DNA from: Streptomyces leeuwenhoekii
GTDB taxonomy: Bacteria > Actinomycetota > Actinomycetes > Streptomycetales > Streptomycetaceae
Direction of reading: 5' to 3'
Length of the DNA: 64,000 bases
Assembly (NCBI RefSeq): GCF_001013905.1
Contig: NZ_LN831790.1
Span: forward strand, 7,330,001-7,394,000
Shown here piece after piece: positions 7,518 to 26,291 of the stretch (positions within the stretch are counted from its first letter, which is position 1; every line of letters starts with the position of its first letter). Under the pieces are notes generated by a model, which saw only the letters and a list, made by a program, of their open reading frames with translations, ran no database searches and was not told the origin of the DNA. The translations under genes and the position numbers were made by a program.

Positions 7518-7561
7518 TCTTCACCTTCGGTCGGCGGGTGAGGGGGGAACAACGGTGAAGA
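7518..7561. promoter_or_regulatory. Inverted repeat in the MFS/LysR divergent promoter region
   Basis: TCTTCACC (7518-7525) and GGTGAAGA (7554-7561) are exact inverted repeats 28 bases apart in the 132-bp spacer between the divergent exporter and LysR genes. LysR regulators typically bind such dyads in the shared promoter. Whether this is the real site is inference. Confidence 0.35.
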
Positions 7562-7614
7562 GCGCAACGTTCGGTCAACCGGGCTTACCGATCCGATGGA
7601 CCCGGGGGACGTCG

Positions 7615-8562
7615 ATGGAACGCGATGAACTGGAGTGCTTCCTCATCCTCGCCGAGGAGTTGCACTTCGGTCGTACGGCCGACCGGATGCGGCTGTCCCG
7701 GGCCCGGGTCAGCCAGCTCGTGCAACGGCTCGAACGCCGCGTGGGCGCCCCGCTGTTCACGCGCACCAGCCGCCGAGTCGCCCTCACCTCGCTCGGCCGG
7801 CGGCTGCGCGCCGACCTCGAACCGCACCACCGCGCCATCGAGGCAGCCCTGGAGCGGGCCGCCGCCACCGCGCGCGGCATCGACACCGTGCTGCACGTCG
7901 GCTTCTCCAACCCGCTGACCGGCGAGATCGTCATGAAGGCGACGGAGGCGCTGCGCCTCAGCCACCCGGGACTCGCCGTGGAGATCTGCGAGGTGCCGCT
8001 CGCCGATCCTTACGGGCAGCTCCGCAAGGGGGAGTTCGACGTCCAGGTCACGGAACTGCCCGTACGGGAGAAGGATCTGGGCGAGGGGCCCACGCTGCTC
8101 GCGGAGGACCGCGTCCTCGCGATCGGCTCGGCCCATCCGCTCGCCGCCCGGTCGTCGGTGTCCCTGGAGGACCTGGCTGGCGTGCCGCTGCTCACGATCG
8201 CCGGGCAGGTGCCCGACTACTGGCTGGAGCATCACGTCCCGGCCCGCACACCCAGCGGCCGGCCGATCGCCCGCGGGCCCGGCGTGACCAACATGCAGGA
8301 GGCGCTGACGCTGGTCGCCGGCGGCAAGGGCGCGCTGCTCGCGCCCGCGCACACGGCGACGTACTACGCGCGCCCCGGTGTGGCCTACCTCCCCTTCGCG
8401 GACGCGGAGCCGACCGGCTACGGCCTGGTGTGGCGGGCCGGGGACGCCACCGGCGCGGTGCGGACCTTCGCCGGAGCCGTCCGCGAGGCGGCGAGGGAGC
8501 TGGCGCGGAAGGATACCCGCGCGGTGGCATCGGCGGGCCGCGCCGCGGCTCCAGGAGGGTGA
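7615..8562 (+). CDS. LysR-family transcriptional regulator
   Basis: A 315-residue protein with an N-terminal winged helix-turn-helix (residues 1-60; FGRTADRMRLSRARVSQLV is the recognition region) and a C-terminal substrate-binding domain (about 90-295). The start ATG 7615 has GGGGGA six bases upstream. LysR proteins usually regulate the divergent neighbour in response to a small ligand, so the exporter at 6031-7482 is the likely target. The last 20 residues are a disordered, Ala/Gly-rich tail. The effector is unknown. Confidence 0.88.
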   Translation: MERDELECFLILAEELHFGRTADRMRLSRARVSQLVQRLERRVGAPLFTRTSRRVALTSLGRRLRADLEPHHRAIEAALERAAATARGIDTVLHVGFSNPLTGEIVMKATEALRLSHPGLAVEICEVPLADPYGQLRKGEFDVQVTELPVREKDLGEGPTLLAEDRVLAIGSAHPLAARSSVSLEDLAGVPLLTIAGQVPDYWLEHHVPARTPSGRPIARGPGVTNMQEALTLVAGGKGALLAPAHTATYYARPGVAYLPFADAEPTGYGLVWRAGDATGAVRTFAGAVREAARELARKDTRAVASAGRAAAPGG

Positions 8563-11949: not shown

Positions 11950-12615
11950 GTGGACAGCACGGTGCAGGAACGGGCGAGGGCAACCCGCAGGTCTCTTCTG
12001 GAGGCAGCCGCCTGCCTCTTCGCCGAACAGGGGTACGCCGGAACCAGCGTCAACGACGTCAGTGCCAGATCGGGCCGGACCAGCGGCTCCGTCTACTTCC
12101 ACTACGCCAGCAAGGAGGGGCTCGCCCTCGCCGTGGTCCGGGACCGGTTCGCCACCTGGCCGGGTCTCGCCGCACGGTACGCGAATCCCGCCGTGCCACC
12201 CCTGGAGCGCCTGGTCGCCCTCAGCTACGAGATCGCCCGTGCCCTCGCCGAGGACACCCTCACGCGCGCGGGGGCACGCCTGTGGGCGGAACGCGACATC
12301 ATCGACGCCCCGCTTCCCGATCCCTTCGCCCTGTGGACCACCGCCACCACCCGGCTCCTCGCGCAGGCCCGGACCACCGGGCACCTCGCCCGCCAGGTCC
12401 GCCCCGCCCCCACCGCCCGAACCCTGGTCCGTGCCTTCTTCGGCCTGTGCACCCTCACCGAGGCCCTGGAAGGCCCCCAGAACATCAGCCACCGCCTCAC
12501 CGACTGGTGGCTCCTGACCCTGCCCTGCCTCCAGCGGGGGGCCGATCCGGCGGAGACGGTGGGGCGGGCACGGGCGCAGGTGATGACCGGGATCGCCTCC
12601 GGAGCCACCGCCTGA
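11950..12615 (+). CDS. TetR-family regulator, gamma-butyrolactone-receptor-like
   Basis: A protein of about 221 residues with an N-terminal TetR helix-turn-helix (RATRRSLLEAAACLF, then TSVNDVSARSGRTSGSVYFHY, residues about 10-60) and an all-helical ligand domain. The VYFHYASKEGLALAVV segment and the C-terminal layout resemble the ArpA/ScbR autoregulator-receptor branch, which responds to gamma-butyrolactones and controls antibiotic production in Streptomyces. GTG 11950 is used; GTG 11962 has a better-spaced GAAGG and may be the true start. It converges with the polysaccharide operon. No butyrolactone synthase (AfsA) gene is nearby, so the ligand is uncertain. Confidence 0.75.
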   Translation: MDSTVQERARATRRSLLEAAACLFAEQGYAGTSVNDVSARSGRTSGSVYFHYASKEGLALAVVRDRFATWPGLAARYANPAVPPLERLVALSYEIARALAEDTLTRAGARLWAERDIIDAPLPDPFALWTTATTRLLAQARTTGHLARQVRPAPTARTLVRAFFGLCTLTEALEGPQNISHRLTDWWLLTLPCLQRGADPAETVGRARAQVMTGIASGATA

Positions 12616-12670: not shown

Positions 12671-13462
12671 TCAGCAGGGCTTGCGCCAGGCGTCCAGTTC
12701 CGGCTTCTTGAGCATCGACGACAGCCGCAGCTTCCGGGCCAGGGGGCAGAAGTCGGCGGTGGGCCGCGCGTACTCCACGTGGAAGACCGCCTTGCCCGCC
12801 GCGACGAACGGCTCGAGCAGGGCGCACTCGCCGTACTGCGCGCACTCTTCGTTGACCGCGAAGTCGAAGTCGTCCACCAGCTCCGGGATCTGGGGCAGGT
12901 CGTTCTTCAGGCCCACCGCCAGCCCGCGCTCGTGCGCGATCTCCGCGATCATGCGGTTGTAGCGGATCTGGTCGCGGGCCGTGAGAGGGAAGCCGGTGTC
13001 ATGGGAGTAGCCCTCGACCAGATCCGGTTCCACCGCGTCGAATCCCTTGTCCCGGCACATGTCGAACCGGCGTTCCATGACGGGACGCAGCGCCCGGGTC
13101 TGACGGATGTCCAGCCAGCGCTCGCCCCGCCAGCCGTTGGGCCCGCCCAGCACCGAGCGGGGGAAGGCGTCCCGGTCGGGGCGGAAGTCCTCCCAGGCGC
13201 CCACGTTGACGTAGCAGATCACCTTGCGTCCGTCCCGGTGCAGGCGGGCGACGTCCGAGGCGCTGCTCTCGAAGCCGTCGATGTCGTAGACGGGCACGTC
13301 GACGGACGGGTCGACCTTGCCGTCGAGCTGCCACTGCCAGGCCAGCCCGGGGCGCGGCCGCCACCATGTGCCGCCGGGGTCGGAATCCTCGCCGCCGGAG
13401 CACCCGGCGAGGGCCGCCACCAGGGACAGGGCGACCACCACGGCCACCGCGAGCCGCCTCAC
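12671..13462 (-). CDS. GH114-type endo-galactosaminidase-like lipoprotein
   Basis: A 263-residue lipoprotein: a short basic, hydrophobic signal ends in the lipobox LAGC (Cys21), so it should be anchored outside the membrane. The mature part has the GH114/TM1410 barrel signatures VICYVNVGAWEDF (81-93), GFDAVEPDLVEGY (140-152) and FAVNEECAQYG (201-211), with Asp/Glu residues at the expected catalytic positions (around Asp147 and Glu205). GH114 enzymes, such as fungal Ega3 and the hydrolase part of PelA, cleave alpha-1,4-linked galactosamine polymers. The GTG start overlaps the stop of the upstream gene (GTGA). As the last gene of the operon it probably trims or releases the polymer made by its partners. 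Confidence 0.8.
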   Translation of the reverse strand: MRRLAVAVVVALSLVAALAGCSGGEDSDPGGTWWRPRPGLAWQWQLDGKVDPSVDVPVYDIDGFESSASDVARLHRDGRKVICYVNVGAWEDFRPDRDAFPRSVLGGPNGWRGERWLDIRQTRALRPVMERRFDMCRDKGFDAVEPDLVEGYSHDTGFPLTARDQIRYNRMIAEIAHERGLAVGLKNDLPQIPELVDDFDFAVNEECAQYGECALLEPFVAAGKAVFHVEYARPTADFCPLARKLRLSSMLKKPELDAWRKPC

Positions 13463-14121
13463 CGCTCCGCCTCGGCCAGCGCGGGGGTCAGCCGGGACCA
13501 GGGGTTGGGCGGTTCGCCCGTCACCGGCCCGCACACGGCCGCGCCCCGCTCGCGCGCGGTGCGCACGGCGAGCGGCACCAGCAGCTCGGGCACCCCGTAG
13601 ACCAGATGGCACAGCCGCTCGGGCGGCTGCCGGGCGGCCCACGGGGGCCGGCTGAACGCCGCCACGTACTGGGACCAGTGGCCCTCGAAGGTGACGGTCA
13701 GATCGGCGAGCCGCGCATAGCCTGGAGCGGGGTGTACCCCCGGGTTGAGGACGACGGGCGCGGCACCGAGCCGGCGCACGGACCGCACCAGGCGGCGGCA
13801 GGCCGGCAGCCCGTCCGGCGCGGCGGTCACCCGGTCCAGGAAGCAGCCGTCCACGCCGTACCACTCCCGGTGCCTGCGCAGATCGGCGACGACGTCGGCC
13901 GGGTCCCGCGCGCCGTAGTCCGTGTCGACGTAACCGAGCAGCCGGGCGCCCGCCGAGCGCAGCGCTTCGGCGGCGGCGGCGAAGGCCGGGTCCGGGCTGT
14001 CGCCGGGCCCGCTGGCGGGGTTGAGCACGACGGCGTAGGTGTGCGCGGCACGGGTGATCAGCCGGTGCCACGCGGCGGGGTCCTCGGCCGGATGGACGTA
14101 CAGCGGAATCAGCAGGCTCAC
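13459..14121 (-). CDS. GH135 / spherulin-4-like glycoside hydrolase
   Basis: A 220-residue protein of the spherulation-specific family 4 (GH135, the family of fungal Sph3, which cuts N-acetylgalactosamine stretches of galactosaminogalactan). Diagnostic blocks are LLIPLYVHPA (3-12), VVLNPASGPGDSPD (31-44), LLGYVDTDYGARD (61-73), DGCFLDRV (91-98) and TVTFEGHWSQY. Asp96 and Glu146 match acidic residues considered catalytic in Sph3, but the residue after Asp96 is Arg where the family usually has Glu. There is no signal peptide, unlike the fungal enzyme. The GTG start and the stop both overlap neighbouring genes, showing tight operon packing. Confidence 0.78.
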   Translation of the reverse strand: MSLLIPLYVHPAEDPAAWHRLITRAAHTYAVVLNPASGPGDSPDPAFAAAAEALRSAGARLLGYVDTDYGARDPADVVADLRRHREWYGVDGCFLDRVTAAPDGLPACRRLVRSVRRLGAAPVVLNPGVHPAPGYARLADLTVTFEGHWSQYVAAFSRPPWAARQPPERLCHLVYGVPELLVPLAVRTARERGAAVCGPVTGEPPNPWSRLTPALAEAER

Positions 14122-15044
14122 CGGGCCGCTACCCCTTCGGCGCTGCGGGACCGTGCGCCCGCGGCCGCCCACAGCGCCTCCAGCGACGCGCCGAGGGAGC
14201 GCGAGGGCCGCCAGCCGAGCGCGGCGCGGGCGGCGGTGATGTCCGAGCACTGCCAGGAGACGTCGGCGGACCGCGTGGAGCCGCCCGCCCCCTCCTCCAC
14301 GATCCGGCCCCGGAACCCGGCCGCGTCCGCCAGCGTCCGCACCAGGTCCCGGACCGGGACCGCGTCGCCGCCGCCGATGTTGAGGACCGGCGGCAGCGGC
14401 CCCGGCGCGGTGACCGCCAGCGCCACCGCCTCCGCCACGTCGCGTACGTCCACGAAGTCGCGATACGCGGACAGGTCCCCGAGCCGCAGCGTCGCCTCCG
14501 GACCGCGCCCGGCGTCCGCGAGCAGCGCGGCGACCCGGCCGGGCAGGCCCGTGGGCGGGGCCCCGGGACCCACCGGGTTGCCCACCCTCAGCACCACCGC
14601 GTCCAGCCCCGACGCGGTCACCGCCACCGTGCCCGCCAGCTTGGTCGCGCCGTACGGGCCGGCCGGACCGGTGGCCCCGGACTCGGTCACCGGCCTGCCG
14701 GGGGTGCCGGGCCCGTACTCGGCGGCCGAGCCCAGGTGCACCAGGCGGGCCCGGGGAGCGGCCTCGCGCAGGGCCGCGCACAGCACGGCGGGCCCCCGGG
14801 CGTTCACCTCCGCCAGGGTGACGGCGTCACCGCCGGTCGCGCCCGCGCAGTTGACGACGGCGTCCGGCGCGACCCGGGCCAGCGCGGCCGCGAGCTCCCG
14901 GGGACGGCCGGAGGCCAGGTCGGCGGTGACGTCGGCGGCGGGGGAGCGGCCGCCGAGGAACACCCGCGCGCCCGGCAGGGCCCGCAGCCGTTCGACGACA
15001 TGGCCGCCCAGGTAACCGGTGGCACCGAGGACGAGGATGTGCAT
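14118..15044 (-). CDS. NAD(P)-dependent sugar-nucleotide epimerase/reductase (extended SDR)
   Basis: A 308-residue extended short-chain dehydrogenase: Rossmann motif GATGYLGGHV at residues 7-16, active-site YGATK with the Ser in HLGSAAEYG, and a typical sugar-nucleotide C-terminal domain (DFVDVRDVAEAVALAV). It acts on a nucleotide sugar in the cytoplasm, either as a C4 epimerase (like Uge3 or PelX in related polymer systems) or as a 4-keto reductase finishing the product of the 4,6-dehydratase two genes upstream. The nearby dehydratase favours the reductase role; sequence alone does not settle it. It lies 6 bases after the nucleotidyltransferase gene. Confidence 0.8.
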   Translation of the reverse strand: MHILVLGATGYLGGHVVERLRALPGARVFLGGRSPAADVTADLASGRPRELAAALARVAPDAVVNCAGATGGDAVTLAEVNARGPAVLCAALREAAPRARLVHLGSAAEYGPGTPGRPVTESGATGPAGPYGATKLAGTVAVTASGLDAVVLRVGNPVGPGAPPTGLPGRVAALLADAGRGPEATLRLGDLSAYRDFVDVRDVAEAVALAVTAPGPLPPVLNIGGGDAVPVRDLVRTLADAAGFRGRIVEEGAGGSTRSADVSWQCSDITAARAALGWRPSRSLGASLEALWAAAGARSRSAEGVAAR

Positions 15045-15050
15045 GAAAGG

Positions 15051-15764
15051 TCAGGCTCCCTTGAGCAGCAGCGACTTGCGGCTGGTGAACTCCGCGTTGG
15101 CCCGGTCGTAGTCGTCGGGACGGCCGATGTCCAGCCAGTATCCGTCGAACTCGTAGGCGTGCGGCGGACGCTGGGCGGCGAGCAGGTCGAGCACCAGCTC
15201 GTCGAAGCCCAGCGGCAGTCCGGGCGTGTAGCCGTCGAGGGTGGAGCGGGAGACGCCGTAGACGCCCATGGAGACCCGGTAGTCGATGCTGGGCTTCTCG
15301 GTGAAGGCGACGACCCGGCTCTGGTCGGTGGTCAGCACCCCGAAGTCGATGTGCACCTTGCGGGCGTAGGTCGCGATGGTCAGCGGCGCGCCCGACGCCT
15401 CGTGCCGGCGCAGCACATCGGCGTAGTCCAGGTCGGTGAGCACGTCGCCGTTCATCACGAGGAATTTCTCCGGCAGGCGCTCGCGCAGGGTGAGCAGCGG
15501 GCCCATGGTGCCCAGCGGGTTCTCCTCGGTGGCGTAGTCGATGTTCATGCCCCACTGCGAGCCGTCGCCGACGTAGGCGCGGATGATCTCGCCGAGGTGG
15601 CCGATGGCGATGGTGCAGTGGGTGAAGCCGGCCGTGGACAACTGCCGCAGCACGATCTCCAGGATGGCGTGCTGGTCGCCGATGGGCACCAGCGGCTTGG
15701 GCAGCGCGGTGGTGTACGGCCGCAGCCGGACGCCTTTTCCTCCGGCAAGGATGACTGCGTGCAT
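15051..15764 (-). CDS. Sugar-1-phosphate nucleotidyltransferase
   Basis: A 237-residue nucleotidyltransferase of the RfbA/GlmU-N/mannose-1-phosphate guanylyltransferase type. The start MHAVILAGGKGVRLRP is the nucleotide-binding signature, LPKPLVPIG holds the conserved Lys, FLVMNGDVLTDLD carries the metal-binding Asp, and FTEKP and GYWLDIGRPDDY complete the family set. It charges a sugar phosphate with a nucleotide to feed the adjacent dehydratase and epimerase. Length matches stand-alone enzymes with no left-handed helix domain. Base and sugar specificity are unknown. Confidence 0.85.
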   Translation of the reverse strand: MHAVILAGGKGVRLRPYTTALPKPLVPIGDQHAILEIVLRQLSTAGFTHCTIAIGHLGEIIRAYVGDGSQWGMNIDYATEENPLGTMGPLLTLRERLPEKFLVMNGDVLTDLDYADVLRRHEASGAPLTIATYARKVHIDFGVLTTDQSRVVAFTEKPSIDYRVSMGVYGVSRSTLDGYTPGLPLGFDELVLDLLAAQRPPHAYEFDGYWLDIGRPDDYDRANAEFTSRKSLLLKGA

Positions 15765-15796
15765 GGCTTACCTCCAGCGGGTGCGTGCCGGTCGGG

Positions 15797-16798
15797 TCAG
15801 ATGTTGTAGATGCCGGTCTTGTAGCGGGCCAGGTTGGCCGGATCGCCGAACCACTCCACGGTCCGCGCGAGCCCCTCCTCCAGCGTGTGGCCCGGGCGCC
15901 AGCCGGTCGCCTCGGTCAGCCGGGTGGCGTCGGCGACGAGCCGCATCACCTCGGAGTTGGCGGGCCGCAGACGCGCGGGGTCCTCACGGACGTCGAGGGG
16001 CGCGTCCATCACCTTGCCGATCAGCGCGACGAGGTCGCCGACGGAGATCTCCCCGCCCGTCCCGGCGTTGAAGGTGCGGCCCACCACCCGCTGCGCCGGT
16101 GCCGTGCCCACCGCCAGGAACGCCTGCGCGGTGTCCGCCACGAAGGTGAAGTCCCGGGTGGGGCGCAGATCGCCGAGGGTGATGGTGCGTTCCCCGGCCG
16201 CCACCTGCCCGATGACGGTGGGGATCACCGCGCGCATCGACTGCCGCGGCCCAAAGGTGTTGAACGGCCGCAGCGTCACCACGGGCGTGTCGAAGCTGGC
16301 GTGGTAGCTGTCGGCCAGCCGGTCGCCGCCGGCCTTGGAAGCGGCGTAGGGCGACTGGGTGTTGATGGGGTGGTCCTCGGTGATCGGCACGGTCTGCGCG
16401 GTGCCGTAGGTCTCGCTGGTGGAGGTGTGCACCAGGCGCGGGGTGCCCAGCGCCCGCACCGCCTCCAGCACGTTGAGCGTGCCGGTGACGTTGGTGTCCA
16501 CGTAGCTGTGCGGGGCCTGGTAGGAGTACGGGATCGCGATGAGCGCGGCCAGGTGGTAGGCGCAGTCGGCGCCGTCGAGCAGACCGCGCACCGAGCCGGG
16601 GTCGCGGACGTCGCCGAGGACGATCTCCACCTGGTCCAGGACGTCGGCGGGCAGTGTCTCCAGCCAGCCGTAGGAGGAGAACGAGTTGTACTGGGCCATG
16701 GCCCGGACCCGGTGGCCGGAGGCGACGAGCGCCTCGGTGAGATGGGAGCCGATGAACCCTTCGGCTCCGGTGACGGCGGCGAGCGGTGCGGAGGTCAC
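15797..16798 (-). CDS. LegB-like NDP-hexosamine 4,6-dehydratase
   Basis: A 333-residue extended SDR with TGAEGFIGSHLTEAL, the YNSFSSYGWL block, HLAALIAIPYSYQAP, TSTSETYG and the active-site YAASK. The YNS..GWL and IAIPYSY blocks are distinctive for the LegB/NAD-dependent 4,6-dehydratase group acting on NDP-N-acetylhexosamines, for example in legionaminic acid synthesis. It would yield a 4-keto-6-deoxy-HexNAc nucleotide. The neighbouring nucleotidyltransferase and SDR complete a plausible three-step path to a 6-deoxy amino sugar. No synthase for a nonulosonic acid is present, so the sugar is probably used directly in the polymer. Confidence 0.8.
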   Translation of the reverse strand: MTSAPLAAVTGAEGFIGSHLTEALVASGHRVRAMAQYNSFSSYGWLETLPADVLDQVEIVLGDVRDPGSVRGLLDGADCAYHLAALIAIPYSYQAPHSYVDTNVTGTLNVLEAVRALGTPRLVHTSTSETYGTAQTVPITEDHPINTQSPYAASKAGGDRLADSYHASFDTPVVTLRPFNTFGPRQSMRAVIPTVIGQVAAGERTITLGDLRPTRDFTFVADTAQAFLAVGTAPAQRVVGRTFNAGTGGEISVGDLVALIGKVMDAPLDVREDPARLRPANSEVMRLVADATRLTEATGWRPGHTLEEGLARTVEWFGDPANLARYKTGIYNI

Positions 16799-16879
16799 TC
16801 TCGGTTCCTTTCGTCGGGTGGTGCGGTGGGGAAGGACAAGGGGCCCCCGGGGGCGGAGCCCGGGGCGGCGGTCCGGTGG

Positions 16880-18295
16880 TCAGGAGTGCGGGGAGGGCCT
16901 GCCGAGCAGATGGATCGCGCAGGCCGCCAGGCAGGCCGCCGCCGCCCCGCAGACCGACGGCAGTACGGCCGGGCCCGGCGGCAGGTCCAGCCAGGTGACC
17001 GCCCCGGCTCCGGCGGCGGCCGCCAGACAGAGCACGGCCGGCGGCCAGGCCGCCCCGAACGCCTGGAGCAGCAGGGCGGTCCACAGGGCGGCCGCCAGCA
17101 GCAGGAGCGCGGCCGGGTCGGAGGCGGTCAGCAGGGCCGGGGGGAGCAGCAGCAGGAGATACCCGGACACGCACAGTGCGAGGACCGCGGCCGAGCGGAG
17201 CAGGAATCCCCGGGGTGTCGCGCTGACCCGCAGCGCGGCGACCGACCAGCCGCGGTAGCGGTACAGCAGCCATTCGGCCGGGCCCATGCTCACGGTCAGG
17301 GCGATCACCGCGTACGGCTCCCGCCGACCCTCCAGCATCACCAGGACCGCGGCGGCCAGTCCGAACAGACCGTAGGGGAGCGAGGAGAGCAGGCGCGGCC
17401 GGGGCCCGTCGGCGGCGGCCGGGGCGGCGAGGCCCGCCCGCAGGACGCCACCGGCGGCGGCGAGCGTGGCCAGCAGCGCCAGCAGCGGCAGTCCCGCCCG
17501 CAGCAGCGGGCCCGGCTCCCACCACGGCAGCACCGCACCGCCGGCGATCAGCGGGCCGAGCGCGGCCAGCAGCAACCGCTCCCGGCCGAGCACCAGCAGT
17601 ACCCCCGCCGCGGCGAGATACAGCGACTGAGCCGCCGCCACCGCGGTGACCCGGCCGCCCCCGGCGGGCAGTGCGGCCAGGCCCGTCGCCACCGCCGCGC
17701 CGAGCAGCGAACCGGTCAGCAGGGTGCGGGCGGCTTCCCGGCGCCCCGTCACCAGCCGCAGGTGCGCCCGGTGGCCGAGCGCCTGCCCCCACGCCCAGGA
17801 GACGACGCCCGCCACGATCAGGACGGCGGCGTGCCGGTCGACCCGCCACAACGGGGCGGTGAGCAGATAGGCCAGGGCGGGCAGCGCGAACAGCACTCCG
17901 CGCAGCAGGCAGCGCACTGTGTCGGGCCGCCACGGGTCGGCCGCGGGCGGCGGCTCGGGAAACGTCCGGGGCACCTGCGCGTACAGTGCGGACGCCAGCG
18001 AGAACAGGTTCGGATGGCCGTAGCGCTCCTTGATCACGGAGGCGGTCATGCCCTCCGACTCCAGCAGCGCGGCCACCTCGTACGGGTGGACGGCGGGGCC
18101 GATGCGGTCGGCCAGTTCGGCGGCGAGCGCGCTGACGGCCTCCTCGTCGGGCCCCTGCCGGGGCAGCCGGATCGTGAGAGTGGTGTCGTCCAGGGCCCAG
18201 CGGGGCCGGCGGCGGGGCCGGGGCGGCCGGGCCAGCCGCAGCGCCAGCGTCTCCTGCTCGGCGCCGCCGGGTTCCAGGGATATCGGCCCGCTCAT
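16880..18295 (-). CDS. Polytopic membrane protein, putative polysaccharide export/synthesis partner
   Basis: A 471-residue protein. Residues 1-130 are soluble and probably cytoplasmic; the rest carries about ten to twelve hydrophobic segments rich in Leu/Ala. ATG 18295 overlaps the stop of the PelF-like gene (ATGA), so translation is coupled. I do not recognise a family with confidence. In Pel systems PelF works with PelG, a 12-helix flippase-like protein, and this gene sits where PelG would, but the soluble N-terminal region differs from PelG. A role in moving the growing polymer across the membrane is inference from position and topology. Confidence 0.6.
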   Translation of the reverse strand: MSGPISLEPGGAEQETLALRLARPPRPRRRPRWALDDTTLTIRLPRQGPDEEAVSALAAELADRIGPAVHPYEVAALLESEGMTASVIKERYGHPNLFSLASALYAQVPRTFPEPPPAADPWRPDTVRCLLRGVLFALPALAYLLTAPLWRVDRHAAVLIVAGVVSWAWGQALGHRAHLRLVTGRREAARTLLTGSLLGAAVATGLAALPAGGGRVTAVAAAQSLYLAAAGVLLVLGRERLLLAALGPLIAGGAVLPWWEPGPLLRAGLPLLALLATLAAAGGVLRAGLAAPAAADGPRPRLLSSLPYGLFGLAAAVLVMLEGRREPYAVIALTVSMGPAEWLLYRYRGWSVAALRVSATPRGFLLRSAAVLALCVSGYLLLLLPPALLTASDPAALLLLAAALWTALLLQAFGAAWPPAVLCLAAAAGAGAVTWLDLPPGPAVLPSVCGAAAACLAACAIHLLGRPSPHS

Positions 18296-19803
18296 CCGGT
18301 CAGGCTCCCCAGGCTGGTGACCGCCGGGGCGGGCAGGACGATCCGGGCGGGCATCTCCCGCGGGCCCGCGGCCAGTTCGTGGTAGATGGAGCGGAAGGTG
18401 TCGATGGTCTGGCGCAGGGTGAACTGCTCGATGACCCGCAGCCGGGCCGCCTCGCCCATGGCCTGGCGCCGGGCCGGGTCGCGCAGCAGCTCCAGCGCGG
18501 CGGCGGCCATCGCGTCCGGGTCGCGCGGCGGCACCACGAGACCGGTGTCGCCCACGGCCTCCCGCACCCCGCCCACGTCGGTGGAGACGGTGGCCCGTCC
18601 GCACGACATCGCCTCGATCAGCGTGAACGGGAAGCCCTCGCTGATGCTGGAGAGCATCACGACGTTCCCGGCGGCGTAGGCGTCCTTGATGTCCTCGACG
18701 CGCCCCTCGAACGTCACGGCGTCGGCGTGCCCCAGCTCGGCGGCCAGTGCCTCGCAGCGTTCCCGGTAGCCCTCTCCGCCCCGGGGCGTCCCGCCGAACA
18801 ACCGCAGCCGGACCTCGGGCAGTCGGGCCCGGACCAGGGCGAAGGCGCGGATCAGGGTCTCCAGGTCCTTGATGGGGTCGACCCGCCCGGCCCAGCTGAG
18901 GGTGAGGTTCTCCGGCTCGGGCCCGGCCGGGGGGAAGGCGGCGGGGTCGACGCCGTTGTAGACCGTGCGGATCGACGCCGGGTCGGCCCCGCCCTGCTCC
19001 TCCCACAGCCGGTTGTAGCGGTTGCCGGGGGTGATGAGCGCCGCGCGGCGGTAGCTCTCCTCCGCCAGCAGCCGGAAGAAGCCCAGGACCACCGCCTTGA
19101 CCGGCCAGCGGTATGGCGCGGTCCGGTAGCCGAGGTAGCGCTCGCGCAGGTAGACGCCGTGCTCGGTGAGCAGCAGCGGAACCCCGTGCCGCTCCAGTGC
19201 CGCCAGCCCCGGCAGCACGGCGACACCGCCGCTGACCGCGTGGGCCACGCCCTCCTCGGGCGGCGAAGCGGCCAGCGGGCGCAGCGCGTGTTCCAGCAGG
19301 GCGGTCGCGGTGAGCGCGTCGTGCAGCGTCGGCCCCGCCTCCCGCACCACCAGGCCCGGCCGCGTCCACACCTGCGTCAGGACCGTGATGGCCGTGTCGT
19401 CCCGCAGGAAGGGGCTGAGCAGGCCGTCCGCCGCCGCCCCGGCCAGCGCGTACAGCGCGGGCGCGAAACCGTCCTCGGCGCACGGGTCGACCAGCGCGGT
19501 CAGGAACCGCTCGTAGGCTTCGGCGAGCCGGCGGCGGGCACGGCCGCGGGGCGGGCGGCCCGGGGGAGCGGCACCCCACATCGGCACGGATACGACACGC
19601 GACACGTGTCCGGGCAGGTCCCACACGATCGGCTCGCGCCCGGTGCCGGTGACGGCGATGACGTCGAAGTCGAGGTCGGGCATGCCGGTGACGAGCTGGT
19701 CGCACCAGACGCTCACACCGCCGTGACTGTGCGGGTAGGTGCCTTCGGTGAGCAGGGTGACGCGCGGTGCGCCGGAGCGCCGCGCGCCGTGGTGAACGTG
19801 CAT
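18292..19803 (-). CDS. PelF-like GT4 glycosyltransferase
   Basis: A 503-residue GT-B-fold glycosyltransferase. The N-terminal block LLTEGTYPHSHGGVSVW (residues 17-33) is the hallmark of PelF, the cytoplasmic polymerase of Pel polysaccharide. TEHGVYLRERYLG and ITPGNRYNRLW follow in the first Rossmann domain, and the donor-binding EX7E motif lies in SEGFPFTLIEAMSCGRATVS. It should polymerise a UDP- or NDP-HexNAc. ATG 19803 is chosen for GGAG seven bases upstream. It is 85 bases downstream of the deacetylase gene and overlaps the membrane-protein gene. Gram-negative PelD/PelE partners are not present. Confidence 0.83.
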   Translation of the reverse strand: MHVHHGARRSGAPRVTLLTEGTYPHSHGGVSVWCDQLVTGMPDLDFDVIAVTGTGREPIVWDLPGHVSRVVSVPMWGAAPPGRPPRGRARRRLAEAYERFLTALVDPCAEDGFAPALYALAGAAADGLLSPFLRDDTAITVLTQVWTRPGLVVREAGPTLHDALTATALLEHALRPLAASPPEEGVAHAVSGGVAVLPGLAALERHGVPLLLTEHGVYLRERYLGYRTAPYRWPVKAVVLGFFRLLAEESYRRAALITPGNRYNRLWEEQGGADPASIRTVYNGVDPAAFPPAGPEPENLTLSWAGRVDPIKDLETLIRAFALVRARLPEVRLRLFGGTPRGGEGYRERCEALAAELGHADAVTFEGRVEDIKDAYAAGNVVMLSSISEGFPFTLIEAMSCGRATVSTDVGGVREAVGDTGLVVPPRDPDAMAAAALELLRDPARRQAMGEAARLRVIEQFTLRQTIDTFRSIYHELAAGPREMPARIVLPAPAVTSLGSLTG

Positions 19804-19888
19804 CGTTGTGCTCCACGGCCGATGTGTGGGGTGGTCGTGCGGGCCCCCGCCGCCGGTGGGCGGCCGGGGCCCCGGTGCCGTACGCCGG

Positions 19889-22027
19889 TCAGCTCGGCGC
19901 GCCGGGCAGGACCGGCTCGGCCACGCCCTGGGGCACCCGGGTGTCGGGGGCCGGGGCCGTGGCCGGTGTGGAGCCGTTCGCGTCGGTGGCCGTGGGAGTG
20001 GAAGGTGACGCGGACGACGGCAGAGTGAGAGTGAGCGGTGTGATCCCGGCACCGGTCCAGCCGGACCGCTGGCCGGCGTACGCCTCGCCGAAGGCCGTTC
20101 CGGCGCGTGTGGTGCCCTGCGGCATGGTCGCGGGCACCGCCACGCCGGCCGGGCCGTCGACGGTGACGGTGTCGCCGACGCGGTAGGCCGTGACCTGCCC
20201 GCTCTGCACGGCCGCCCGCCACGCGCCGCGTCGCTGGAGTTCCTTGCCGATCTCCTTCATCCGCAGGTTGACCACCGGGGTGTTCTCCGCGAACAGCGTG
20301 TCGTAGGTGTTCAGCACACCGTCCAGGACCGGGTAGGCGATGCGGTCCTCGGCCAGGTTCGACTGGTGGATGAAGTGCGGCTTCGGGTCGTTGGCGAGCA
20401 CGTGACCGAGGGCGATCTGCCGCTCCAGGGGCACGATGTGCCCGGTGTAGCCGGTGGCCGGGTCGAGCGGCGCGGGCAGGCAGGTGGTGGTGGCCGGGTT
20501 GTCCTCGCAGATGCCGCTGCCGCCCTGGGCGCGGCTGGTGTAGATCCAGTTGTACTCGTCGACCTGCTCGGCGGCCCGCCCGGCGTTGTAGAAGATGTTC
20601 ATCGGGTAGCGGGGGACCGTCGTGGCGGGGCCGACCTTGCGCTGCTGCGGCTCGCGGGAGTTGTCCGCGGCCAGCCAGGTGACGCCGTTGTCGGCCAGGG
20701 CGAGCGCCAGGTTGGGGTTGTCGGCGGGCTGCTGGGGCAGTACCCGCAGTCCGGAGTGCTCACCGGTGACCAGCTCGTCGTTGTCCAGGGGGAGTCCGGC
20801 GAGCTGTCCCCAGACGCGGTTGTGGGCGATCTCGTCGGCGACATCGAAGCGGCTGACCCACTTGGTGCTGCCGTCGGCGTTGGTGGCGCACCGCCAGGGC
20901 ACTACCGAGGTGTCCTGCTCGCAGCCGAGGAAAGCGTGCGTGTACGTGTGGTTGATCCAGCGGAACTCGTTGCGCTGGGCGAGGAGCCTGTCGGCCAGCG
21001 GGTCGGCGCCGTTGTTGTCCTCGCGGTGGTCGGCGCTGCCGGCGCCGTTGTAGGCGAAGTCCAGGGTGAAGTCGCGCTCCCGCTGCCAGGCGACGGCGTG
21101 GTCGACGTCCGCGGGCGACATGCGGATCGGGTCCGGGGTGACGTTCGGGTCCGTGCAGTCCACGTCGCCGGGCGTGCAGTTGAGCGTGGCGTTCCAGCGG
21201 TCGTCCGCCGCGAACACGTCGTCGACGTGGACGGCGAAGTAGTTGCGGGAGGTGCCCAGGTGCACACCGCCGGTCATCCACTGCACGATGCCGCGGGCCA
21301 GCAGCCGGAACTGCTGCTGGTACCGGTTGTAGACGAAGGTGACGACCAGCTCGCGCCGCCCGTCGTGCCGGTACTCGCCGACCAGGGAGCCCCGCTTCGT
21401 GGTGCCCGGGATCGGCGCCTGGACGTACGGGGTGAAGTCGGCACCCGCCACCGGCGTCGACAGATAGGCGTAACTCTCGCCCACCGTAGGGGAGTTGTCT
21501 TCGAACGGCACCGGGCCGTCGAGGTAGCCGAACGGGCCCGCCCGGCCGGCGTCCGTCACCTCGGCCCGCACCCCGTCGACGCTGCCGGAGTAGCCGCCGT
21601 AGATCGGGTACTGGAGCCCGGCCTCGGGGCGGGCGTAGGTGTACGCGTCGACCTGCGGGATGCCGTAGGTCTTCTCGTAGGTCACGAGCGCGGCCATCTC
21701 CGCGGAGTTCGCCGGGAACGGATTGTCGTTGGGCAGGACGACGGCCTGGAACTTCGCGCGTTCCCGTCCACCGACGGTGTCCGCGAGGTAGCCGGCGTCG
21801 ATCACCGGCCGGTCGGACCGGGTGAGGTCGATCTCGGTGTACGGCGTTCCGGCGGCGTCCAGTTCGGCCGCGATGGCCTCGGTGGACGGGCCGCCGTCGC
21901 TCACGATCAGCACCCGCAGATCGACGCGGGGTGCCGAGGCGTCGGCGGAGGCCGCCGTGGTCGGCACACCTAGGGCGGCTATGAGTGCGCCCGACGTGAG
22001 CAGGGCAGTGCGTATGGTCCGCTTCAT
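19889..22027 (-). CDS. Secreted Agd3/CE18-like polysaccharide deacetylase
   Basis: A 712-residue exported protein: a Sec signal with KRTIRTALLTSGAL ends near Ala30. Residues 35-255 form a beta-rich module at the position of the CBM87 carbohydrate-binding domain of Agd3. The catalytic domain starts near HVDDVF (His267, Asp269, Asp270) and includes WINHTYTH (358-364), the metal-binding motifs of the deacetylase fold. A C-terminal beta domain and a Ser/Thr/Pro tail follow. Fungal Agd3 deacetylates galactosaminogalactan outside the cell; this protein probably does the same to the polymer of this operon. It is the first gene of the minus-strand block, and its ribosome-binding site lies in a hairpin (22038-22055). 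Confidence 0.8.
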   Translation of the reverse strand: MKRTIRTALLTSGALIAALGVPTTAASADASAPRVDLRVLIVSDGGPSTEAIAAELDAAGTPYTEIDLTRSDRPVIDAGYLADTVGGRERAKFQAVVLPNDNPFPANSAEMAALVTYEKTYGIPQVDAYTYARPEAGLQYPIYGGYSGSVDGVRAEVTDAGRAGPFGYLDGPVPFEDNSPTVGESYAYLSTPVAGADFTPYVQAPIPGTTKRGSLVGEYRHDGRRELVVTFVYNRYQQQFRLLARGIVQWMTGGVHLGTSRNYFAVHVDDVFAADDRWNATLNCTPGDVDCTDPNVTPDPIRMSPADVDHAVAWQRERDFTLDFAYNGAGSADHREDNNGADPLADRLLAQRNEFRWINHTYTHAFLGCEQDTSVVPWRCATNADGSTKWVSRFDVADEIAHNRVWGQLAGLPLDNDELVTGEHSGLRVLPQQPADNPNLALALADNGVTWLAADNSREPQQRKVGPATTVPRYPMNIFYNAGRAAEQVDEYNWIYTSRAQGGSGICEDNPATTTCLPAPLDPATGYTGHIVPLERQIALGHVLANDPKPHFIHQSNLAEDRIAYPVLDGVLNTYDTLFAENTPVVNLRMKEIGKELQRRGAWRAAVQSGQVTAYRVGDTVTVDGPAGVAVPATMPQGTTRAGTAFGEAYAGQRSGWTGAGITPLTLTLPSSASPSTPTATDANGSTPATAPAPDTRVPQGVAEPVLPGAPS

Positions 22028-22037
22028 GCGGTGATGT

Positions 22038-22144
22038 CCCCTCCCAGGGCAGGGGTGAACATCGCTCCGCGGAGCGGACGCACCCCCTCGCGTGACGCCG
22101 GCTTCCCCCTCAGAGGCCGGTCGCCAACACGTCCGTCGCGTCAC
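22038..22144 (-). promoter_or_regulatory. Structured 5' leader of the polysaccharide operon, RBS in a hairpin
   Basis: Read on the minus strand, the leader holds three nested or stacked inverted repeats. GTGACGC (22144-22138) pairs with GCGTCAC (22098-22092) and encloses CCGGC/GCCGG. CGCTCCGCGGAGCG (22076-22063) is a perfect palindrome. CCCCT (22055-22051) pairs with AGGGG (22042-22038), the latter being part of the Shine-Dalgarno sequence of the deacetylase gene. This layout resembles a cis-regulatory RNA acting on translation. I could not match it to a known riboswitch consensus. Confidence 0.4.
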
Positions 22145-22416
22145 ATGGTGAGGTCTCTGTGGAAATTTTGTGCCCCTGCTGCGAAACCTGACTGAAAACT
22201 GTAGGGGTGCGGCAGGTGGCTGTCGTGGGGCGAGAGTGGGGCCGGCGGCCTGTCGTGCAGGCCGGTCCTGCTCTGCTCCGGGGGTGCCGTGCAGGTGGGG
22301 GGAGTGCGACTCACCGGCGGGCCGGTGGCCCGCCGGTGGAGAGACCGTTGGTGAGGTCCGCGCCGCGCCGGGAAGCGTTGGCCGATTTTCGGTCAACGCT
22401 TCACCCGGTGTGTGCG
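22145..22416. other. Spacer upstream of the polysaccharide operon leader
   Basis: Together with the leader this makes a gene-free gap of about 390 bases. A locally AT-richer stretch (about 22155-22200) is the best candidate for the operon promoter on the minus strand. No gene is supported. Confidence 0.4.
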
Positions 22417-22944
22417 TCAGGCGCAGAGAACGCGCGTCTCGGGCGTGTAGACCGGGCCGCCGCTGTAGTTCGTGCTGTCGCTGAACTCGGCGTAGAAGTA
22501 CGAGTAGAAGCCGATGTTCCCGTTGCAGCCGGAGTCGGCGGCGATCTGCAGCGTCAGCGTCACCGTCCGGCTCTGGCCGGGCGGGATGGGGGCGTTGTAG
22601 TTGGTGCCGAGGTTGGAGGGGCCGGTGCCCGAACAGGGGGTGCTGCCGTTGGCGGTGGCGAGGCTGCAGCCGGTGATCGAGTACTTCAGGTCGGGGCGCT
22701 GCGTGGTCAGCCAGGTGGGGTCGATCGTCTGGTAGACGAACCAGAGGTCGTAGGTCTTGTTGTTGGTGAGGGTCATCGTCAGGTTCACCGTGCCGCCCGG
22801 AGTGGTGGTGGCGGCGTCGGTGGTGAACTTCAGGTCGGCGGGGTTCGGGTCGGCCGCGCTCGCGGAGGGGGCCAGGCCGAACAGGGCGAGGGCGAGGGCG
22901 AGGACGGCGCTGAGGCCGAGGCGTCTCATCAAGGGTGATCGCAT
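22417..22944 (-). CDS. Small secreted beta-sandwich protein
   Basis: A 175-residue exported protein: MRSPLMRRLGLSAVLALALA leads to a signal cleavage near PSASAA. The mature part of about 140 residues reads like an immunoglobulin/DUF11-type beta-sandwich (PGGTVNLTMTLTNNKTYDLW, then PPGQSRTVTLTLQIAA), with four cysteines that could form two disulfides. Such domains often mediate surface adhesion or carbohydrate contact. ATG 22944 and ATG 22929 are both possible starts; neither has a good ribosome-binding site. It precedes the polysaccharide operon in the same direction, but the 390-base gap with its own leader argues for separate transcription. Confidence 0.7.
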   Translation of the reverse strand: MRSPLMRRLGLSAVLALALALFGLAPSASAADPNPADLKFTTDAATTTPGGTVNLTMTLTNNKTYDLWFVYQTIDPTWLTTQRPDLKYSITGCSLATANGSTPCSGTGPSNLGTNYNAPIPPGQSRTVTLTLQIAADSGCNGNIGFYSYFYAEFSDSTNYSGGPVYTPETRVLCA

Positions 22945-23411
22945 GGCCCGGGAGGCTAGACACGGGGTGTGCGCGCCGTCTGCCCCCGCGCCGGCGTTCC
23001 TGGGGGGAGACGGCCGAAAGTAGGTGTTCCACGAACCAGATGTGGAAGAAGTGTGTGGGCGGGGTGGAGGATGCATAGGTGCACGGTGGAGGCGGTGCGG
23101 CGGGGGGAGCCGGTGACGAGACCGGACCCGGCGCCCCGAGGGGACGGTGGCGGCGGTATTGGCCGGTACTCGTCGTGCCGCCTTCCGCCCGGAAGGACCG
23201 CGCCCGGGGCCGGCCGTGTACGTCCGGCCAGCGGGCCGTCGCCCGGCGGTCCTCCGGACCGGCGCCCGGAGCCCCGCGCTGAGCCGGGCGGTCACGTCCT
23301 TCCGTAATCGGCCGGAAGTCGCCGGTGGTCACTTCGCGCCCATTGATGTGGCGGCCCGCCACCGCTTCGATGGCCCCTGCCGGTGCGCCTCGCCACCGGC
23401 ACCGACGACAC
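22945..23411. other. Divergent intergenic region
   Basis: About 470 bases between the small secreted protein (minus) and the metalloprotease (plus), so it must contain both promoters. TTCCAC (23027-23032) and GTGGAA (23042-23047) form an inverted repeat with a 9-base spacer, a possible operator near the minus-strand promoter. No gene is supported. Confidence 0.45.
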
Positions 23412-26291
23412 ATGGGGGGTTGGGGAACCTTGCGTCACTTCAGAGGGGGAAGAGCTCGCGGAGGCGGCCGCAGACGGCGGCTGAGCGGTATAGCGGGTGC
23501 GGCGGCGCTGACGGGCGTCGCCGCACTCGTCGTTCCGGCGGTGCCAGCGGGTGCCGCGACCGGAACGGAGGCGCCACCGCCCAGTCCGGGGCAGGTGGTC
23601 CCCGGACAGCGGACCGAGACACCGGCCCTGGTCCGGGGCATCCGGGAACAGGCACCCGACGCGGGCAGCGCGGCGGGCGCGGCCCGCGCTTACCTGGAGG
23701 CGGAAGAGGGGCGGTACCGGATCGCGCACGCCGAACGCGACCTCGTGCCCGCCGGGACCACCGCCTCGGGGGCCCGGGAGGCCGTACGGCTCCAGCAGCG
23801 GCACCACGGTGTGCCCGTCCTGGGCGGCCAGTACATCGTCCGCATGGAGAACAAGGGCGGCGAGCGGGTCGTCACCGGCACCTCCGGCAAGTACTTCACC
23901 GGGCTGACCACCGGTACGACCGCCGAGGTCGGGGAGGAACTCGCCGTCGAACGAGCCGTGGACCGGGTCCTGGCCGATCTGGGCGCCGAGAACTTCGCGA
24001 CGGCGCCGCCCGAGGGCGAGGAGGAGCAGCTGCCGCTCCAGGGCATCGCCCGCGGCCTCGTCGTACTGCCCATGGGAACGGGTGTCCTGACCCAGCACGT
24101 CACCGTGCGCGGCACCGACCCCGCCGACGGCGAGCCCGTGCTGCGAGAGGTGTACGTCGACGCCCGCGCCGGCTACCCGGTCCTCGGCTACAGCGGCATC
24201 AAGACGTTCCGGGCGCCGGCCGCGGCCTCCGGGCAGCCCGCGCCGGAGGCGACCGCGCAGCGTGCCACCGCCGTGCTGGAGACGGGCAGCGGCGTCCGGC
24301 TCGACGGCACGTCCGTCGGCCTGGACGTGTCCCGCGACGAGGAGCGCGGCCTGTACGTGCTGCGGGACCGCACCCGCATACCGGACGACGACTACGCCGA
24401 CCGGGCCCTGACGACCTGGGACGCCCGCGGCCTGAACGTCGGAGACGTGAGCGGGCAGTGGCCCGAGGGGGTCCGTGAATTCGGCTCGCCCACCCCGGAG
24501 TTCGGCGCCGAGGCCACCGAAGCGGGAGCCGTCGACGCGCACTGGGCCGCCGCCCGGGTCTACGACTACTACCGGGACAAGCACGGCCGCAACAGCCTCG
24601 ACGGCCGCGGCATGAGCATCGACTCCCTGGTGGGTGTCACCGAGTTCGGCCAGCCCTACGTCAACGCCTTCTGGGACGGGCGGAAGATGGTGTACGGCAC
24701 CGGCGACGCGGAGTACCGGCCGCTGTCCGCGGCCCTGGACGTCGTCGGCCACGAGATGACGCACGGCGTGATCGAGCACTCGGCGAACCTCGTCTACGCG
24801 GGCCAGTCCGGTGCCCTGAACGAGGCCATCGCCGACTACTTCGGCAACGCCGTCGAGACGGACGTGCTGGGCATCCCGGTGACGGACCCCGACTCCGGCC
24901 TCCTCGGCGAGCGGCTCTGCCGCACGAAGTCCCCCCGCGAGTGCGCCCTGCGCGATCTGAACGACGGGCGGACCACCACCAAGTCCTTCCTCGGCCTGGA
25001 CTTCCTCAACGACAACGGCGGGGTCCACCTGAACTCCACCATCTTCGGCGGCGCGCTGTGGGACGCCCGCGAGGAACTGGGCGCGGACCTCGCCGACGAG
25101 GTCGTCTACAGGGCGCTGACCGAATACCTCACACCCCTGGACGGCTTCACCGAGGGACGGGCCGCCGTACTCGCCGCCGCCCAGGACCTCGGGGTCGCCG
25201 GGGACGGGCTGAAGGCGCTGCGCCGTGCCTTCACCGCCCACGGCATCGTGCCCGGCTGGGAACTGGCCCTCGGCGTCGACTCCGAGCCGCTCCTGGACCG
25301 GATCAACACGACCGGCACGGGCCTGGGAGCGGGCGGCGGCTGGTGGGCGGCGTCGAAGTCGAACGAGGACGGCTCGGAACCGTACTCCGTCTGGGCCGGG
25401 CGCGCCGACGGCAAGGGGCAGCTCAAGCTGATGAGCCCCAACGACGGCCGCTACCACGTCAACCCCGCCACCGACGGCACGACGGTGGTGTGGCAGGCGT
25501 ACAGCCCGGGCGCCGTCGAGATCCTGGCCCGGCCGCTCGCGGGCGGTCCCGTGAAGAAGCTGTGGGCAGGCCGCAGCGGCGGCAGCGTGACGGACGTCGA
25601 CGGCGACCTCGTCGCCTTCAGCTACGCGAACGTCGGCGGGCGCTCGGGCGTGGCCTATCTCAGCCTGAAGAACCCGGCGGACGTCAGCACCGTCGGCGGA
25701 GGCACCTACCGCCGGGCGTACTCGCCCTCGGTCGACGACGGCAAGATCGCCTACCAGGAGTGGCGGAGGGTGGCGCTGGCGGCCCGCGCCGTGTACGAGT
25801 GGAGGACGCTCGTGGTCGATGCCGCCACCGGTGAGACCACGGTGGTCCACGAGGCCCCGAGCACCACGAGTCACGGCCCGACCGCCCTCGACGGCGCCCG
25901 TGTCTTCTGGCTCGCCGAGCGGGACACGGGCGAGAACGGGACGGCCTTGTTCCGCGCCCCGCTCGACGGCTCCGGCGTGGTGGAACTCGCCCCGGAGGCC
26001 GGGTGGGGCCCGCTGCGGGTCTACGACCTGACCGCGTCCGAGGACAGTGTGACGGTCGCCGCCTACGACCCCGACGCTCCCCTCGACAACGAGACGACCC
26101 CCAAGCTCCACCAGTTCGAGGCCGCCGGCACCCCCGGCGCGCAGGGCACCTACAAGGGCCGCGTCTCCTGCAACCGCGGCGGCCAGACCCACCCCGCGGC
26201 CGTCGGCGGCAGCCAGGTGGTGTGGCTGGACGCGACGACGGGCACCACCGACGTGGTGACCCGCGTCCGGCCGACGGGCAGGTGCGGCTGA
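23412..26291 (+). CDS. Secreted thermolysin-type (M4) metalloprotease with C-terminal extension
   Basis: A 959-residue exported prepro-protease. The signal region is very basic and then hydrophobic. A propeptide with FTP/PepSY-like segments occupies about residues 60-330. The catalytic domain has VVGHEMTHGVIEH (HEXXH, His447), GALNEAIADYFG with the third zinc ligand Glu, and DNGGVHLNSTIF with the transition-state His. After about residue 620 come some 340 residues of repeated beta-strand patterns (TTVVWQAYSP, DGDLVAFSY, GKIAYQEW, GARVFWLAE, SQVVWLDA) that look like a TolB-type beta-propeller, unusual for M4 enzymes. ATG 23412 is used; TTG 23430 is an alternative. It presumably degrades extracellular protein. 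Confidence 0.9.
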   Translation: MGGWGTLRHFRGGRARGGGRRRRLSGIAGAAALTGVAALVVPAVPAGAATGTEAPPPSPGQVVPGQRTETPALVRGIREQAPDAGSAAGAARAYLEAEEGRYRIAHAERDLVPAGTTASGAREAVRLQQRHHGVPVLGGQYIVRMENKGGERVVTGTSGKYFTGLTTGTTAEVGEELAVERAVDRVLADLGAENFATAPPEGEEEQLPLQGIARGLVVLPMGTGVLTQHVTVRGTDPADGEPVLREVYVDARAGYPVLGYSGIKTFRAPAAASGQPAPEATAQRATAVLETGSGVRLDGTSVGLDVSRDEERGLYVLRDRTRIPDDDYADRALTTWDARGLNVGDVSGQWPEGVREFGSPTPEFGAEATEAGAVDAHWAAARVYDYYRDKHGRNSLDGRGMSIDSLVGVTEFGQPYVNAFWDGRKMVYGTGDAEYRPLSAALDVVGHEMTHGVIEHSANLVYAGQSGALNEAIADYFGNAVETDVLGIPVTDPDSGLLGERLCRTKSPRECALRDLNDGRTTTKSFLGLDFLNDNGGVHLNSTIFGGALWDAREELGADLADEVVYRALTEYLTPLDGFTEGRAAVLAAAQDLGVAGDGLKALRRAFTAHGIVPGWELALGVDSEPLLDRINTTGTGLGAGGGWWAASKSNEDGSEPYSVWAGRADGKGQLKLMSPNDGRYHVNPATDGTTVVWQAYSPGAVEILARPLAGGPVKKLWAGRSGGSVTDVDGDLVAFSYANVGGRSGVAYLSLKNPADVSTVGGGTYRRAYSPSVDDGKIAYQEWRRVALAARAVYEWRTLVVDAATGETTVVHEAPSTTSHGPTALDGARVFWLAERDTGENGTALFRAPLDGSGVVELAPEAGWGPLRVYDLTASEDSVTVAAYDPDAPLDNETTPKLHQFEAAGTPGAQGTYKGRVSCNRGGQTHPAAVGGSQVVWLDATTGTTDVVTRVRPTGRCG

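Follow-up and report, generated by a model that had tools for sequence, protein, structure and literature searches.

The question raised by the locus described here is which polysaccharide would be assembled by a bacterial operon that encodes enzymes of both the fungal galactosaminogalactan (GAG) and the bacterial Pel machinery. The operon consists of eight tightly packed minus-strand genes at positions 12671-22027 of a 64,000-nt stretch of Streptomyces leeuwenhoekii contig NZ_LN831790.1 (the window, meaning the whole stretch analyzed), in a genome of 8.12 Mb and 3 contigs. The genes are:

19889..22027, minus strand: CE18/Agd3-like polysaccharide de-N-acetylase with a leader-like N-terminus, 712 aa
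18292..19803, minus strand: PelF-type GT4 glycosyltransferase with DUF3492, 503 aa (NF038011, DUF3492, conserved residues)
16880..18295, minus strand: polytopic membrane protein with a predicted MOP-superfamily (MATE/Wzx/MurJ) fold and an N-terminal helical domain, 471 aa
15797..16798, minus strand: LegB-like nucleotide-sugar 4,6-dehydratase, 333 aa (TIGR04180 score, T-S-E motif)
15051..15764, minus strand: sugar-1-phosphate nucleotidyltransferase, 237 aa (PF00483)
14118..15044, minus strand: extended short-chain dehydrogenase/reductase (SDR), proposed 4-keto reductase (or C4-epimerase), 308 aa (PF01370, S/Y/K triad)
13459..14121, minus strand: GH135 (Sph3/spherulin-4 family) hydrolase without a signal sequence, 220 aa (PF12138, Sph3 match)
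12671..13462, minus strand: GH114 (Ega3 family) lipoprotein, endo-galactosaminidase type, 263 aa (PF03537, Ega3 match)

The list of open reading frames (ORFs) and computation of the gaps agree with an initial annotation of this DNA, which had described these eight genes and several four-base overlaps between them: the intergenic gaps, in order from CE18 to GH114, are 85, -4, 81, 32, 6, -4 and -4 bp, with the four-base overlaps falling in three gene pairs. The start of the CE18 gene was taken as the ATG at 22027, within a longer ORF (19889-23413). Among the matches listed, named homologues of the operon proteins all came from Streptomyces, and in Streptomyces harenosi (L094) all eight genes are 95-98% identical to those of the window.

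Our best explanation, to which we give an even chance, is that the operon is a Pel/GAG-type synthase route to an extracellular, partly de-N-acetylated (cationic) amino-sugar polysaccharide with a dedicated precursor. Most simply, the nucleotidyltransferase would convert N-acetylglucosamine (GlcNAc)-1-phosphate, or glucosamine-1-phosphate, to nucleoside diphosphate (NDP)-GlcNAc, the LegB-like protein would convert this to NDP-4-keto-6-deoxy-GlcNAc, and the SDR would produce an NDP-6-deoxy-N-acetylhexosamine of the N-acetylquinovosamine or N-acetylfucosamine type. The PelF-type GT4 would then polymerize an NDP-N-acetylhexosamine in the cytosol and the MOP-fold membrane protein would export the resulting chain; outside the cell, the CE18 enzyme would strip acetyl groups and the GH114 lipoprotein would trim the chain. 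A deacetylated amino-sugar exopolysaccharide had already been proposed in the initial annotation and is still the most likely product; the CE18, PelF-type GT4, GH114 and GH135 assignments made there are also supported, as described below.

Relatives of the operon were surveyed in two ways. In evenly drawn genomes, the CE18 protein was matched in 9 of 296 genomes of the phylum, whereas a survey of the class gave matches to the membrane protein in 17 of 296 genomes; 26 regions around these matches were fetched and the eight proteins mapped onto each, with genes called by a codon-composition caller except in L068, which was read from the ORF list. Additionally, a profile scan of genome contigs gave 191 confirmed places, all brought in by one peptide pattern of the membrane protein, leaving operons without the pattern uncounted; the best 80 of the 191 were kept, 77 of them from Streptomyces. 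L069 and L068 lie on the same contig, as do L070 and L067, and contig ends cut several loci. Loci that hold any gene of the precursor trio (LegB-like protein, nucleotidyltransferase and SDR) were designated type A, and those with no trio gene and no GalE type B. Because type A loci are collinear on one strand in 47 of 48 cases (in the exception, L069, the CE18 gene has moved) and complete, with all eight genes, in 34 of 48, the arrangement is beyond chance, and the conservation of the gene set expected by the initial annotation is in fact found. Outside Streptomyces, type A loci were present in Goodfellowiella (L075) and an uncultured bin (L069/L068).

Catalytic motifs were read from 75 of 76 matched loci for CE18, 77 of 77 for GT4, 78 of 80 for the membrane protein, 48 of 48 for LegB, 47 of 48 for the nucleotidyltransferase, 48 of 48 for the SDR, 73 of 73 for GH135 and 66 of 66 for GH114, window excluded. 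Rows were left out when they had an internal stop or were less than 0.7 or more than 1.8 times as long as the window protein, and only the better of two GH135 proteins in L070 was entered.

The structure model of the CE18-like protein matches Agd3 and has its three-domain fold (CBM87, CE and a beta-rich C-terminus), and residues D269, D270, H360, H364, R473 and H554 are present in 76 of 76 rows, window included. The four CE18 motifs, CM1-CM4, are given as Asp-Asp, H-x3-H, Arg and His in the accessible text of PMC7229062. Predicted fold and catalytic residues together confirm the protein as Agd3-type, with de-N-acetylation of an N-acetylgalactosamine (GalNAc) polymer as its predicted activity. 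At the level of families, PF25115 is listed for part of the best 120 homologues, and Agd3_CE was matched by 8 of 31 members of the CE18 alignment at E 0.001 or better. The protein start is hydrophobic in 39 of 46 type A rows versus 0 of 28 type B rows, but the type B leader was not judged because type B starts were probably called too short.

The GT4 protein exceeds the cut-off of the PelF family (NF038011, 169.3 bits, cut-off 100), matches DUF3492 in Pfam (207.6 bits) and shares E389/E397 (E-x7-E), R307 and K312 with all 78 rows. Its PelF-like nature was thus called correctly from the start, although it represents a distant PelF branch, since the PelF of the Rubrobacter xylanophilus locus L050 scores 506.9 bits with the same profile. 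The membrane protein has a MOP-superfamily fold according to its predicted structure and fold comparison. No Pfam match was obtained in 45 of 45 members tested, the PelG family PF16933 included, and comparison with a 37-row PelG alignment by hhalign gave a probability of 0.2% (effective sequence number, Neff, of alignment A3 only 3). Identification of this protein as PelG by sequence was rejected, as profile comparison shows no link. PelG is itself a MOP/Wzx-type exporter, and because the membrane protein has the MOP fold, its pairing with the GT4 resembles PelF-PelG. We propose on the basis of the modeled fold that it is an exporter, PelG-like in role; outward transport would be the direction expected of it.

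Both hydrolases also belong to the families named in the initial annotation. The GH114 protein matches PF03537 (286.6 bits, cut-off 27) and Ega3 (6oj1, E 6.9e-55), it has the lipobox pattern in 59 of 67 rows, and D147/E205, which align with Ega3, are found in 67 of 67; the catalytic pair of Ega3 is reported as Asp189/Glu247 in the text available for PMC12054363. The GH135 protein matches PF12138 (Spherulin4, 118.5 bits, cut-off 30.2) and Sph3 (5d6t, E 7.1e-13). Its D96 and E146, which line up with the FFDE Asp and the VFE Glu of Sph3, are present in 74 of 74 rows. The Glu beside the catalytic Asp of Sph3, presumably E167, is replaced by Arg or Gln in 74 of 74 operon rows. We do not regard the enzyme as dead on this account, because the Sph3 catalytic pair is printed as Asp196/Glu222, with a single Asp, in the part of PMC12054363 consulted; D96 corresponds, in our reading of the alignment, to Asp196. 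In principle, the GH114, GH135 and CE18 enzymes could attack fungal GAG, and Streptomyces would meet moulds in soil, so that the cluster might degrade the GAG or Pel of another organism and make no polymer. However, the PelF-type GT4, the MOP-fold membrane protein and the nucleotidyltransferase are biosynthetic, the operon GH135 has no export signal, and we regard degradation as very improbable.

The GH135 protein starts directly at its barrel. A hydrophobic N-terminus was seen in 2 of 73 relatives and is missing from the window protein; since starts were picked near that of the window protein, an upstream start could be missed as a result. Leader-like starts do occur in two Rubrobacter-type loci (L050, L051) and in the second GH135 of the Frankiaceae locus L070. 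Without an export signal, the operon enzyme would be cytosolic and might act, for example, on chains that fail export. In contrast, Sph3 of Aspergillus is described, in the text available for PMC8647848, as membrane-localized with an unclear role.

The trio is all-or-none: across the 80 loci, 48 have all three genes, 31 have none, one has GalE instead, and none has one or two. Nucleotidyltransferase orthologues (at least 80% identity) occur in 12 of 28 Streptomyces genomes, the same 12 that have a type A operon, with the best match in the other 16 at or below 39%; LegB orthologues (at least 81%) occur in the same 12, and a LegB paralogue at 53-55% is located elsewhere in five Streptomyces genomes, two of them without type A. 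In L068 the nucleotidyltransferase and SDR are fused in one ORF (6805-8550). The LegB-like T-S-E is present in 49 of 49 rows, and its Glu aligns with the Glu of TDP-glucose 4,6-dehydratase 1r66, whereas the epimerase-family structure 6wjb, which we take to be PelX, a UDP-GlcNAc 4-epimerase, has Ala. The nucleotidyltransferase matches PF00483 (134.2 bits), its best NCBIfam match is mannose-1-phosphate guanylyltransferase (141.6 bits, below the cut-off of 440), and guanylyl-, uridylyl- and thymidylyltransferases are all found among the PDB structures that it matches. The SDR matches PF01370 (134.1 bits), has S106, Y131 and K135 in 49 of 49 rows, and aligns alike with epimerases and GDP-6-deoxy-mannose reductase. 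For comparison, Campylobacter LegB dehydrates GDP-GlcNAc at C4/C6, according to the portion of PMC7439481 consulted. Collectively, these sequence features suggest that the trio makes a dedicated 6-deoxy-amino-sugar precursor; in the simplest chain the product would be an NDP-6-deoxy-N-acetylhexosamine, with base and stereochemistry not fixed by sequence. The legionaminic-acid pathway likewise has a LegB-like 4,6-dehydratase and a nucleotidyltransferase, but no aminotransferase or NeuB/NeuC-type domain was present among the scanned proteins of the window, which has the SDR instead. Taken further, the polymer could be a 6-deoxy counterpart of GAG or Pel, with a fucosamine- or quinovosamine-type sugar, possibly GDP-activated, in its backbone or repeat, a PelF-type enzyme as its polymerase, a new-branch MOP exporter, and CE18, GH114 and GH135 enzymes tuned to it, an extension that we put forward only tentatively.

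The initial annotation had held that each class of the fungal cluster has a counterpart here, and for Uge3 this does not stand. The Aspergillus cluster has Uge3, whereas the operon has the trio, and neither of its SDR-type proteins is over the cut-off of GalE (TIGR01179, 262.3 bits), with 54.8 bits for the SDR and 142.1 for the LegB-like protein; the LegB-like protein has the dehydratase Glu where 6wjb has Ala, and a GalE over the cut-off stands in the trio-less operon of a Frankiaceae metagenome-assembled genome (L070, 337 bits). Uge3 thus appears to have no clear counterpart, though one of these proteins may be a divergent epimerase.

Such an epimerase would lead to a different product, an ordinary GAG/Pel-like alpha-1,4-GalNAc/galactosamine (GalN) polymer in which the SDR is a Uge3/PelX-type 4-epimerase and the nucleotidyltransferase and LegB-like protein supply a minor decorating sugar. 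The best PDB match of the SDR is indeed 6wjb (4.4e-20), GalE stands in the trio-less Frankiaceae operon, and characterized relatives of GH114, GH135 and CE18 act on GalN/GalNAc chains, as far as the available texts of PMC12054363 and PMC7229062 describe them. The low GalE score of the SDR speaks against this, as does the 4-keto product of the LegB-like protein, which would be left without another finishing enzyme among the eight genes. Relatives of the SDR without LegB at a third Streptomyces locus also favor it, but there Cys replaces the catalytic Ser in 8 of 8 regions, which makes that SDR a poor guide to function. Overall, we consider an ordinary GalNAc polymer possible but doubtful.

This third locus (L149, 7989-13233, on contig C3 of genome G000 at about 3.117-3.122 Mb, and L150-L156) combines genes for the GT4, the membrane protein and the SDR with a neighboring ThiF-rhodanese gene in 8 of 8 Streptomyces regions (Pfam names from L149), and GH135 is present in 6 of 8. 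Its type of GT4 (46-59% identity) is found in 27 of 28 Streptomyces genomes. In 5 of the 6 GH135 proteins, the 5 readable for the motif, Arg or Ser replaces the catalytic Glu. The locus is a conserved operon whose enzymes are apparently disabled.

Returning to a dedicated-precursor route to a deacetylated polysaccharide, several observations weigh against it. The Agd3_CE score of the CE18-like protein is 24.3 bits, below the cut-off of 27.6; against PDB sequences the single protein found nothing at E 0.001, and a profile of 31 members, searched up to E 1, did not find Agd3 and matched only N-deacetylase/N-sulfotransferase 1 (E 0.15-0.19), so that the identity of the protein was settled by fold search. 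In type A, modifying enzymes are absent more often than core genes: of the 48 loci, 47 have CE18, 47 have GT4, all 48 have the membrane protein (by construction), 44 have GH135 and 39 have GH114. Moreover, among 12 further type A regions, the fetched stretch holds no CE18 gene in L046 and L059 and a fragment of one in L053. For the precursor, the LegB-like protein scores 445.8 bits with TIGR04180 LegB, short of the cut-off of 475, which is why it is named LegB-like, and 6wjb is the best PDB sequence match of this protein as well as of the SDR. The distant operon of genome G204 has relatives of the nucleotidyltransferase and SDR and no LegB orthologue, and the third locus has a related SDR without LegB and nucleotidyltransferase, implying that the SDR need not follow LegB.

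Regarding the missing CE18 genes, the genomes of L046, L053 and L059 (G182, G563 and G539) each also carry a type B operon with CE18, which could serve the type A operon in trans. Type B loci are collinear in 31 of 31 cases and have all five genes in 22 of 31. On one side they have cobS (29 of 31) and on the other a gene pair for a pyridine-nucleotide-disulphide oxidoreductase (27 of 31) and an M17 aminopeptidase (28 of 31), and these neighbors occur at more than 50% identity in no type A locus. In 13 Streptomyces genomes with a match to the membrane protein, both types were present in 7, type A only in 5 and type B only in 1. A GT4 tree of 28 rows separates all type B from all type A by one branch (100/99), with Goodfellowiella and the uncultured bin branching outside Streptomyces A and B and the two Rubrobacter-type PelF rows far outside; long branches were flagged and six rows fell in no group. 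This fits a duplication within Streptomyces with loss of the trio in type B, but placement of the deep rows is unsure.

Three loci vary this plan. In L068 (2057-14406), the CE18 ORF is extended far at its C-terminus, reaching 1053 residues, and the operon has two GH114 genes around it. The distant operon L052 (7068-16575) has CE18, GT4, the membrane protein and relatives of the nucleotidyltransferase and SDR, with a nucleotide-sugar dehydrogenase and another SDR in place of the LegB orthologue, perhaps a further precursor module. The distant locus L048 (5360-12081) has two GT4 matches beside a CE18 match with internal stops, and GH114 on the other strand.

Kinship to Pel, part of the initial annotation, holds for the PelF-type GT4 and not for a standard Pel operon. 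The Gram-positive pelDEADAFG operon, in the text available for PMC7112168, shares a PelF-type GT, a membrane partner and a deacetylase with the window; the window differs in its added trio, in a membrane protein that is not PelG by sequence, and in the lack of PelD/PelE-type genes among the nine window proteins scanned with Pfam. The R. xylanophilus Pel operon (L050) resembles that of the window in CE18 and CBM87 (over cut-off), PelF and a nearby GH135, and differs in having PelG (463.6 bits) together with PelD/PelE-like GAF, GAF/GGDEF and TPR genes, with no trio match. In both Rubrobacter-type operons, L050 (3915-13024) and L051, the CE18/CBM87 enzyme lies beside PelF and PelG. Given that no gene for a PelD-type cyclic di-GMP receptor was seen among the scanned proteins, the operon might instead build a wall-bound glycopolymer or a glycoprotein sugar of the Streptomyces hypha, not a free matrix polymer. 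We consider this unlikely in view of the leader-bearing deacetylase, the GAG-type lipoprotein endo-hydrolase and the synthase-type GT/exporter pair, and no wall- or protein-attachment domain was reported among the same proteins.

The general idea has been published for bacteria. According to the accessible text of Bamford et al. 2020 (PMC7229062), bacterial genes for Agd3 homologues share their operons with genes for GH114, a multi-spanning membrane protein and a cytoplasmic GT, all of which the window operon has too, and spherulin-4 is also found in some actinobacterial agd3 operons, with transfer to fungi discussed. That text names no trio, leaderless GH135, MOP fold or coexisting types, although its Fig. 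8c or supplements may show the trio; these four points are what our computational analysis adds. Judged mainly by titles, no work on this operon in Streptomyces was found in the open-licence literature. The Aspergillus cluster itself (uge3, gtb3, sph3, ega3, agd3) has CE18, GH135, GH114 and a GT4-class polymerase in common with the window. Gtb3, also called Gt4c (PMC8224951), is described as a putative transmembrane glycosyltransferase in a cluster that uses Uge3 (PMC4817252, both as far as the available texts state), whereas the window operon splits GT and membrane protein into two genes.

One further gene lies upstream of the operon:

22417..22929, minus strand: small secreted-looking protein, about 170 aa (length from the gene caller)

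No Pfam or NCBIfam family was found for 22417-22911, and the protein was matched in 35 of 48 type A loci versus 0 of 31 type B loci. On the other side, a convergent plus-strand ORF (11950-12615), TetR-type regulator-like by its reading, ends just beyond the operon.

Machinery of fungal GAG and of bacterial Pel thus meets in one operon, in the genus best known for producing antibiotics. With its MOP fold, the multi-spanning membrane protein of earlier work is likely to be an exporter, and a GH135 without a leader may shed light on why GAG synthesis needs Sph3 although Sph3 is a hydrolase, as its relative may act on the synthesis side. The trio predicts, in a form open to testing, that the precursor sugar is not GalNAc, two operon types in one genome allow a comparison within the same cell, and the new hydrolases, of known catalytic type, have a possible anti-biofilm use. 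If the 6-deoxy reading is true, paralogous operons would supply many Streptomyces with two cationic matrix polymers that differ from each other.

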